From Dictyoglomus sp. NZ13-RE01 (lineage in GTDB: Bacteria; Dictyoglomota; Dictyoglomia; Dictyoglomales; Dictyoglomaceae), in assembly GCA_002878375.1 (NCBI GenBank), contig NIRF01000005.1, forward strand, positions 1 through 64,000: DNA of 64,000 nt. Direction: 5' to 3'. The position numbers and the translations under genes are program-made. The notes beneath the pieces were generated by a model. That model did not search any database. It was not told the origin of the DNA and saw only the letters and a list, made by a program, of their open reading frames with translations. Positions within the stretch are counted from its first letter, which is position 1. Each line of letters starts with the position of its first letter. Of this stretch, positions 56,650 to 59,802 are shown one piece after another.

Positions 56650-56689
56650 AAAAAATTAAAGTTCCCCACCAGCTAAGGCAAGGAACTTT
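56650..56689 (-). terminator. Expression-platform terminator of the TPP riboswitch
   Basis: On the minus strand AAAGTTCC and GGAACTTT form an 8 bp stem (56689-56682 with 56665-56658) and a 16-base loop, followed by TAATTTTTT. It sits eight bases after the aptamer, so TPP binding should favour termination before thiT. Confidence 0.8.
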
Positions 56690-56696
56690 TTCTCTC

Positions 56697-56790
56697 TTCC
56701 CTCCCTTCGCTGGCATTGCCCAGATCAGGTTCCAAGGGTCGGTAGCTTCCGCTACCCTCTCAGCCCCGGCTTAGGAGCTCCCCTGGGAAA
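56697..56790 (-). ncRNA. TPP riboswitch (THI element)
   Basis: The minus strand has the conserved aptamer core: GGGGCTGAGAGGG, ACCCTTGGAACCTGATCTGG and AATGCCAGCGAAGGGA. TTCCC and GGGAA close P1, and GGTAGC/GCTACC forms the variable P3a-type arm. A TATAAT box (56819-56814) with extended TG lies upstream, inside the 3' side of the cysE spacer. It controls thiT-thiN and perhaps the following gyrA. Confidence 0.97.
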
Positions 56791-56835
56791 ACACCTCTAT
56801 TCAATTTTTAAATATTATATCACAGTTTATTTTGC

Positions 56836-57510
56836 TTAGGAATTTTTAATTTTAATCTCCTTTAACTTTCTTTCTAATTCTTCTATCTTGCTTTCAAGAT
56901 ATGTGATTCTTAAATTTAATTCTTCAATAATTTGTGCTTGCGGATCTGGCAAGTTACCATGGTCCAATATATTATTTATCTTTTTACCATCTTGTATGAT
57001 TATCTTTCCAGGCACACCTACAACAGTACAATTTGGTGGAACAGATTTTAAAACAACAGATCCTGCGCCAATTCTCACATTATCACCTATAGTTATAGGA
57101 CCTAAGACTTTTGCGCCTGCCCCAATAACCACATTATTTCCAATTGTTGGATGACGTTTACCTTTTTCTTTACCTGTACCGCCAAGAGTTACTCCTTGAT
57201 ATATAAGAACATTATCTCCTATCTCTGTAGTTTCACCAATTACAACTCCCATCCCATGATCTATGAAAAATCCCTTTCCTATTTTGGCTCCAGGATGTAT
57301 TTCAATTCCTGTTAGAAATCTATTAACATGAGAAATAAGTCTTGGAATTACGGGTATTTTTAATTTCCATAAAAAGTGTGCAACTCTATGGAGTAATATG
57401 GCATGAAATCCTGGATAGCATAATATTACTTCTAAAAAATTTCTTGCAGCAGGATCTTTTTCAAATACAGCTTTATAATCTGCCTTTAAAGTTTCCCAAA
57501 TTTTCTTCAT
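56836..57510 (-). CDS. cysE: Serine O-acetyltransferase
   Basis: The 224-residue left-handed beta-helix enzyme makes O-acetylserine for cysteine synthesis. Hexapeptide repeats run from [22 protein letters not shown] to [21 protein letters not shown], with histidines of the active site in DHG and KRHPTIG. A helical tail (190-224) follows. I choose the ATG at 57510 after GGGGTG; a GTG four codons upstream overlaps that site. Monocistronic. Confidence 0.95.
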
Positions 57511-57554
57511 AATACACCCCACTTTTAAGAATTTATACTTATTTAGTGCAAATT

Positions 57555-57832: not shown

Positions 57833-57861
57833 TTGACTAATTTTTGAACCCGCATTAAAAT
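57833..57861 (+). promoter_or_regulatory. Promoter of the COG1579 zinc-ribbon gene
   Basis: TTGACT (57833-57838), 17 bp and TAAAAT (57856-57861), with a leader of about 27 bases. The transcript could run through the next ORF and rnpB. Confidence 0.7.
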
Positions 57862-57894: not shown

Positions 57895-58614
57895 ATGAGA
57901 GTTTCTAGTATTCCAAAACTTTTGAATATTCAAGATCAACTTCTAAAATTAAAAGAATTGGAAAAGATTTTAAAGAGTAAAGAAGATGAATTAAAAAGCT
58001 TTAGAGAAGGTGAAACCAAAAAGATAAGTAGTTTAGAAGAAGAAATCAGGTCATTAGAGAAAGAGATAAAAAACATTAAAGATTCTCAAAAAGAAAAGGA
58101 AGATAAGCTATCTTTATTGAAAGAGAAGGTTTCTCAAGAGGAGAAGAGGGCTTTATATATTAAAAATCCTAAAGAAGTACTTCATTTGGAAAAAGAAATT
58201 AATCAGCTTAAAGAGCAAATAAATAATTTAGAAGATAGTATTCTTGAGCTAATGATAACTCTTGATGAAAAAAATAATGTTCTTACGATTAAGCTAAAAG
58301 AATTAGAAGAGATTAAAAAGGAATACAGTAAGAAAGAAGAGGAGATGTTAAAAGAGGTAGAGGATTATAAAAATCAGATTCTTTTATTACTCAATCAGAT
58401 TGAAGAAAACAAAAAGGATATTGAGCCCGATGATCTAATGGAGTTTGAAAATCTAAGTAAACAAAAATTAAATAGGGCAATTGCAAGAGTAGTAAACAAA
58501 GAGGTTTGTGATGGATGTAAACTTACAGTGCCTAAGTTATATCTTGATAGATTAAAGAGAGGGGAAGTTGTTTTTTGTCCAAATTGTGGTAGAATTTTAT
58601 GGATGGAAAAATGA
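57895..58614 (+). CDS. Coiled-coil protein with C4 zinc ribbon (COG1579)
   Basis: The 239-residue protein is a long antiparallel coiled coil (about 10-185) followed by a zinc ribbon with CDGC and CPNC (VCDGCKLTVPKLYLDRLKRG in between). The architecture is that of the widespread COG1579 family, whose function is unclear. Ribosome binding site GGAG lies before the ATG. The next gene starts in its stop codon (ATGA). Linkage of COG1579 genes to rnpB is, as I recall it, frequent in other bacteria. Confidence 0.88.
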   Translation: MRVSSIPKLLNIQDQLLKLKELEKILKSKEDELKSFREGETKKISSLEEEIRSLEKEIKNIKDSQKEKEDKLSLLKEKVSQEEKRALYIKNPKEVLHLEKEINQLKEQINNLEDSILELMITLDEKNNVLTIKLKELEEIKKEYSKKEEEMLKEVEDYKNQILLLLNQIEENKKDIEPDDLMEFENLSKQKLNRAIARVVNKEVCDGCKLTVPKLYLDRLKRGEVVFCPNCGRILWMEK

Positions 58615-58985
58615 ATTTAATTATTTTTTTAGTAGTAGGCATAATTTTTGTTTATTTAGTTGATAGAGTTTTAAAGTATTTTACCACTCCAAGATGTCCG
58701 AAGTGTGGGAAAGTATTATTAACAAGATATAGACTAATAAAGCCACCAACACCTACCGAAGATGGAAAAGAAGAAAAAACTTTATATTGTGAATGTGGAT
58801 ATGAAAAGAAAGTTGAATATAATGTACCTTATTGGAAAATAGTAAGAAAAGAAGGATTTAGAGGTTTTGAAATCATACCTTGGGTAGATCTATATAAGAA
58901 GGAGGAAGTGGACCGGGCAACCGCGGAATCCTCGAAAGAGGATTCTGAGGAAAGTCCGAACACCACAGGGCAGGGTGCTGGGTAA
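58611..58985 (+). CDS. Small membrane zinc-ribbon protein running into rnpB
   Basis: The 124-residue frame has an N-terminal membrane helix (about 2-18), then CPKCG and CECG pairs that could bind zinc. ATG at 58611 overlaps the previous stop. Codons 98-124 and the stop (58902-58985) lie inside the RNase P RNA gene, so the tail EEVDRATAES... is the read-out of the P1 and conserved region I sequences. No in-frame stop occurs before that. The frame is therefore either a real gene with a tail set by RNA sequence, or a shorter protein from a different reading. A promoter for rnpB lies inside it. Confidence 0.6.
   Translation: MNLIIFLVVGIIFVYLVDRVLKYFTTPRCPKCGKVLLTRYRLIKPPTPTEDGKEEKTLYCECGYEKKVEYNVPYWKIVRKEGFRGFEIIPWVDLYKKEEVDRATAESSKEDSEESPNTTGQGAG
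58867..58896 (+). promoter_or_regulatory. Candidate rnpB promoter inside the upstream ORF
   Basis: TTGAAA (58867-58872), 18 bp and TATATA (58891-58896) lie four to seven bases before the predicted RNase P RNA 5' end. This would allow rnpB transcription without reading the ORF. Confidence 0.55.
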
Positions 58986-59265
58986 CACCCAGTCAGGGTG
59001 ACCTGAAGGAAAGTGCCACAGAAAACATACCGCCTAAGCTGAAAAGCTTAGGTAAGGGTGAAAAGGTGAGGTAAGAGCTCACCAGCAGATGGGTGACCAT
59101 CTGGCTTGGTAAACCCCACCCGGTGCAAGGCCAAATAGGAGGGGTTGAGGTGGCCCGCCGACCCTCGGGTTGGCCGCTTAAGGTAATGAGTAATCATTAC
59201 CTCAGATAGATGGTTGCCACTCCAATATTGGAGTACAGAATTCGGCTTATAGGTCCACTTCCTCC
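58901..59265 (+). ncRNA. rnpB: RNase P RNA, bacterial type A
   Basis: The 365-base RNA is closed by a perfect 14 bp P1 (58901-58914 with 59252-59265). Conserved blocks are present: GAGGAAAGTCCGAACACC (region I), GGAAAGTGCCACAGAAA, AGGGTGAAAAGGTGAGGTAAGAGC, and ACAGAATTCGGCTTATAGG (region V), the last forming P4 with region I. It is the catalytic RNA for tRNA 5' maturation. P1 with the following TTTTTT also forms the terminator. Confidence 0.97.
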
Positions 59266-59364: not shown

Positions 59365-59802
59365 ATGTTTATTGGGGAATATATTCACTCTTTGGATGAA
59401 AAAGGAAGATTAACCATCCCTAATGTATTTAGGCAAGAATTAGGTGATAAATTTTATATTACCCGTGGTTTTAATAAATGTCTTCATCTCTACACCATTG
59501 AGGAATGGATGAAATTTTCAGAGTTCCTTCTAAGTTTCTCCCCAACTGATGAAGCATCTATTAATTTAAAAAGGTTTTGGTTTTCCAGCTCTGTAGAGGG
59601 ATGTTGGGATAAATTAGGCAGAGTTTTAATACCAGTTTATTTAAGGGAATATGCAGAATTAGATAAGGACGTGGTAATAATTGGGGTAGGAAAATATATA
59701 GAGGTTTGGAATAAAGAAAATTGGGAGAAATTTAAAAAGCAAGTAGATTTATTAGAAAAATTGAAAGAAATAAATGAAAAGGTGGAAAGATCATGGAAAT
59801 GA
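59365..59802 (+). CDS. mraZ: Transcriptional regulator MraZ
   Basis: The 145-residue protein has two SpoVT/AbrB-type DNA-binding repeats: YIHSLDEKGRLTIPNVFRQ and CWDKLGRVLIPVYLREYA. It is the conserved first gene of the division and cell wall (dcw) cluster. I use the ATG at 59365 after AAAGGGGA; a GTG seven codons upstream lies in the operator. It overlaps rsmH by ten bases. Confidence 0.96.
   Translation: MFIGEYIHSLDEKGRLTIPNVFRQELGDKFYITRGFNKCLHLYTIEEWMKFSEFLLSFSPTDEASINLKRFWFSSSVEGCWDKLGRVLIPVYLREYAELDKDVVIIGVGKYIEVWNKENWEKFKKQVDLLEKLKEINEKVERSWK

Follow-up and report, generated by a model that had tools for sequence, protein, structure and literature searches.

We find that, in the 64,000-nt stretch of Dictyoglomus sp. 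NZ13-RE01 analysed here (the window), a small zinc-ribbon gene reads without a stop codon into rnpB on the same strand and ends at a TAA that lies within the RNase P RNA gene. Comparison with related genomes suggests that this conserved overlap is probably the outcome of an old stop-loss, which was tolerated and then preserved in frame, with the new stop supplied by the RNase P motif GGGTAAC. The RNA of RNase P, an essential ribozyme, ranks with the most highly conserved RNAs known, and it is usually regarded as strictly noncoding. In a Ribo-seq study of S. meliloti, for example, rnpB was used as a non-translated control (PMC10117765).

The open reading frame (58599–58985, plus strand) is present as described in the earlier note, which had read it as a zinc-ribbon ORF running from 58611 into rnpB without a stop until 58985. 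ATG 58611 is likely its start, because in the sequence ATGA this codon overlaps the stop (TGA) of the PF02591 gene before it and because the starts of the relatives align there. The encoded protein has an N-terminal helix, followed by a CPxCG/CxCG zinc ribbon and a 26-residue tail encoded by rnpB. In the structure prediction, residues 99–124 have pLDDT values below 50, and this tail is predicted to be disordered. The RNA gene itself is identified as a full-length class A RNase P RNA by its match to RF00010, which scores 345 bits against a cut-off of 100 and spans model positions 1–367; the rnpB genes of the other Dictyoglomaceae likewise score in full (318–338 bits). The overlap amounts to 81 nt including the stop, that is, 26 sense codons and TAA. 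It covers P1 and conserved region I, as the earlier note had claimed, and P3 as well, while P1 could be extended outward to about position 58899.

The PF02591 gene, the overlapping ORF and rnpB follow one another on the same strand, the first two joined by a start overlap of the operon type, and a promoter-like TTGACT-17-TAAAAT is found at 57833, ahead of the PF02591 gene. Further upstream, on the minus strand, we note a TPP riboswitch (56685–56794) near a serine O-acetyltransferase-like ORF (56836–57522, also minus).

Table 1. Features around the ORF–rnpB overlap (positions in the window).
Feature	Position	Strand	Support
PF02591 C4-type zinc ribbon / coiled-coil gene, first of an apparent operon	57895..58614	+	Pfam Zn_ribbon_9, E=6.6e-10
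Overlapping ORF, 124 aa, likely ATG start overlapping the preceding TGA	58611..58985	+	starts of relatives align
Possible promoter TTGAAA-18-TATATA, predicted +1 at about 58903	58867..58896	+	no better than chance
rnpB, identified as bacterial class A RNase P RNA	58905..59265	+	RF00010, 345 bits, full length
Segment with dual use, covering the 5' strand of P1, the P3 hairpin and conserved region I; conceptual translation EVDRATAESSKEDSEESPNTTGQGAG-stop	58905..58985	+	
P3 hairpin, 21 nt (relatives: 18 or 15 nt, differing by multiples of 3 only)	58926..58946	+	
Stop codon TAA within the conserved RNase P motif GGGTAAC	58983..58985	+	
mraZ, next gene 3' of rnpB	59365..59802	+	Pfam MraZ, E=3.2e-31

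The ORF was found in six of the seven Dictyoglomaceae genomes, in two genera and with D. thermophilum among them; the seventh (G006) is 72% complete, carries neither the ORF nor rnpB and is uninformative. When the ORF and its stop are compared among these relatives, as the earlier note had proposed, no stop precedes rnpB: the frame is conserved and stays open for 75–81 nt of the RNA gene in all six gene-bearing genomes, and the common stop is the TAA of GGGTAAC. Two of these genomes, G003 and G004 (1,855,560 and 1,959,987 bp), are single contigs, and the window comes from the other genus. An assembly or frameshift artefact is rejected because the overlap recurs in five genomes besides the window, including these two.

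That the frame is not a gene at all, and its extension into rnpB meaningless, is a very improbable reading. The lack of any Pfam family above the cut-off for the ORF protein would fit it, but the protein body is 63–73% identical in the five relatives, with CPKCGK and YCECGYE invariant. This body is under purifying selection on codons (pN/pS 0.26), and its start overlap is operon-like, so that the reading is already contradicted. The search for homologues that might lack the tail gave only two matches, a weak zinc-ribbon one in the distant genome G124 (E=1.8e-5) and one in a Clostridia MAG that is unrelated, and these do not polarise the ancestry of the tail. At locus L090 of G124, a gene for a membrane zinc-ribbon protein with weak similarity to that of Dictyoglomaceae stops 14 nt short of rnpB.

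How much an open frame means depends on how open rnpB is by itself. In 99 unrelated rnpBs from other bacteria, generally with a single representative per family, the frame of conserved region I is open across P1–P3 in 62 and ends exactly at the GGGTAA position in 75; both hold in 52. To any upstream gene that loses its stop, RNase P RNA thus offers a frame that is naturally open and already ends in a stop. Since about half of unrelated rnpBs are open as well, the open frame alone is weak evidence of coding, and the remarkable part is instead that no stop lies upstream of rnpB, that a gene occupies this frame and that the frame survives changes in P3 length. The same 52 of 99 fit a passive overlap, in which the stop was lost, the first stop provided by the RNA was used, and selection acts on the RNA only, leaving the tail unselected; the predicted disorder of the tail would also agree with it. 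We regard this alternative as rather unlikely, in view of what the overlapped bases themselves reveal.

In the six Dictyoglomaceae RNAs, the P3 hairpin measures 21, 18, 18, 15, 15 and 15 nt between fixed anchors, and each of the 11 nonzero differences between pairs is a multiple of three (3 or 6 nt), although these pairs are non-independent and imply at least two length events, possibly as few as two. Three other hairpins of these RNAs (P12, P13/14 and P19) give just 6 multiples of three among 37 length differences, and a clade without the overlap gives 4 of 24 within genera. A second line of evidence comes from substitutions. The tail, with only 16 variable columns, has a pN/pS of 0.26 in the ORF frame, equal to that of the protein body, whereas the two remaining frames give 2.7 and 1.4; the same region of the non-overlapping clade gives 0.76, 1.18 and 1.03. 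Shuffling columns within the two segments yields P=0.0085. Both the P3 lengths and the frame-specific pN/pS speak against a passive overlap.

The RNA structure is conserved together with the frame in six of six genomes. P1 carries compensatory pair changes (G-C to A-U and C-G to U-A), with matching changes in the 3' strand, and in the 5' strand these changes affect the third base of a codon (GTG/GTA, GAC/GAT). Taken with the in-frame P3 changes and the pN/pS values, this suggests that RNA pairing and amino acids are both kept. We therefore find support for the earlier proposal that the same bases are held by RNA structure and by codons, and the evidence for maintenance of the tail as protein sequence is moderate.

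Overlap with rnpB is also recurrent across lineages, only some of which seem to hold its frame. In a sample of 102 rnpB loci (L011–L120), the neighbour just upstream can be recognised as a PF02591, RNase H, RsfS or zinc-ribbon gene at 51, and at 15 of those 51 it ends inside rnpB, mostly by 2–16 nt. In about half of the sampled families, rnpB directly follows a PF02591 zinc-ribbon gene or an RNase H-like gene, whose stop often touches P1. Overlaps of at least 60 nt by a recognisable gene number four in 102, namely those of Dictyoglomaceae, of RsfS in G042 and of RNase H in G027 and G037. The earlier description of the overlap size as unusual consequently holds in degree, while the arrangement is not unique. 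Many long ORFs that enter rnpB in GC-rich genomes were judged spurious, several of them having a recognised RNase H or PF02591 gene in another frame.

RsfS (PF02410) reads 71–74 nt into rnpB in five of five genomes of a Coprothermobacter-like family (L023 and L123–L126; genomes G042 and G145–G148). All of these overlaps end at GGGTAA, and one P3 that is 3 nt longer keeps the frame; the overlap is absent from the sister family (f140). An RNase H-like gene overlaps rnpB throughout the order of G027 (8 genomes). There it ends at GGGTAA in five genomes (L031, L128, L129, L132 and L133) and inside the P3 hairpin in the other three (L127, L130 and L131), where the frame is not kept. P3 length changes in this order thus switch the C-terminus of the protein, and not every lineage preserves a tail. 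The loss of frame in three of eight genomes without apparent harm is a further point in favour of passive overlap.

The earlier note had placed an internal promoter just before 58901. The best match, TTGAAA-18-TATATA, scores 9/12 with a predicted start 2 nt before the RNA model, a score that about 7% of control placements reach or exceed, and promoter-like matches at the equivalent place in relatives score 7–8. The proposed promoter is thus not supported, and no match to a strong internal promoter for rnpB rises above chance. The alternative −10 TATAAT at 58818–58823 was rejected, as relatives do not conserve it. In the RsfS clade, an extended −10-like sequence, TGGTAGAAT, occurs a few nucleotides before P1 in five of five genomes; it favours an internal promoter in that clade, although the rsfS codons that contain it are conserved too.

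The want of a convincing separate rnpB promoter, the order PF02591–ORF–rnpB on one strand with its operon-type start overlap, and the recurrence of the overlap in several lineages would all suit a regulatory coupling, in which translation into P1–P3 sets the maturation of RNase P RNA from the operon transcript as a translation-dependent switch. We hold such a switch to be improbable, however: RNase P RNA is needed constitutively, the RNA has no extra conserved element, and sister family f140 does without the RsfS overlap.

We return, then, to a tolerated and frame-preserved stop-loss, for which the following course of events seems plausible. The small membrane zinc-ribbon gene would have no stop of its own, the ancestral one having been lost or never having arisen. 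Ribosomes would translate through P1, P3 and conserved region I to the TAA supplied by the ribozyme, unless the mRNA is cut earlier, and the protein would thereby gain a polar, probably disordered tail of 24–26 residues that is RNase P RNA sequence. This tail is presumably translated and probably has no specific function. The frame may be kept because a frameshift in P3 would either replace the tail by a different one or let ribosomes run on into more of rnpB, and because the tail, once fused, belongs to the protein.

The sequence is best seen as ending up either in an mRNA or in a ribozyme, with the two products most likely made from different transcripts. The suggestion of the earlier note that ribosomes on this mRNA would unfold the 5' part of the RNA is plausible. 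A ribosome must open P1 and P3, which on one molecule is mutually exclusive with their folded state, and an mRNA cut from a cotranscript by 5' trimming would be left without a stop codon. Most of the ribozyme probably derives from transcripts that start at P1 or are trimmed to it, and rnpB would be made either by its own promoter or by processing of the operon transcript. A broader reading, which we advance tentatively as possible though doubtful, is that the 5' end of rnpB is a recurrent source of protein C-termini, via P1, P3 and conserved region I to GGGTAA, with the Dictyoglomaceae P3 being frame-constrained and translation competing with folding.

If a family-wide overlap with whole-codon P3 changes is true, the helix of a universal ribozyme can evolve under reading-frame constraint. 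The overlap also raises the question of how one stretch of 81 bases serves the cell for both mRNA and ribozyme. We note that automatic annotation may cut such genes short or drop the ORF that overlaps rnpB. Our search of the literature, limited to open-access papers and thus weak as to absence, returned no report of a coding overlap with rnpB.

Coding sequence that overlaps a functional RNA is a known kind of arrangement, unusual here because the RNA is a universal ribozyme. FtsO, which lies inside ftsI of E. coli, is an ORF-internal bacterial sRNA (PMC7815308). As in ORF-internal sRNAs of this type, the same bases on the same strand would yield both an mRNA for a protein and an RNA product in its own right; an internal promoter or processing sets the 5' end of such sRNAs. 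FtsO, however, is an sRNA that acts by pairing and is contained entirely in a long ORF, whereas here the RNA is a universal structured ribozyme of which only the first 81 nt are coding and which, unlike FtsO, supplies the stop codon. Within the RNase P system, rnpA overlaps rpmH in Thermus. That case is likewise a gene overlap with an RNase P component, but it joins two protein genes and leaves the RNA subunit gene aside. Closest are the other loci where RNase H, PF02591 or RsfS genes precede rnpB: there too the upstream gene ends at rnpB or a few to about 100 nt inside it, and the long overlaps mostly use the same GGGTAA stop. Most of these overlaps are 16 nt or less, however, and that of RNase H is not frame-stable, whereas in Dictyoglomaceae the gene is a different one, for a membrane zinc-ribbon protein, and the overlap is fixed.
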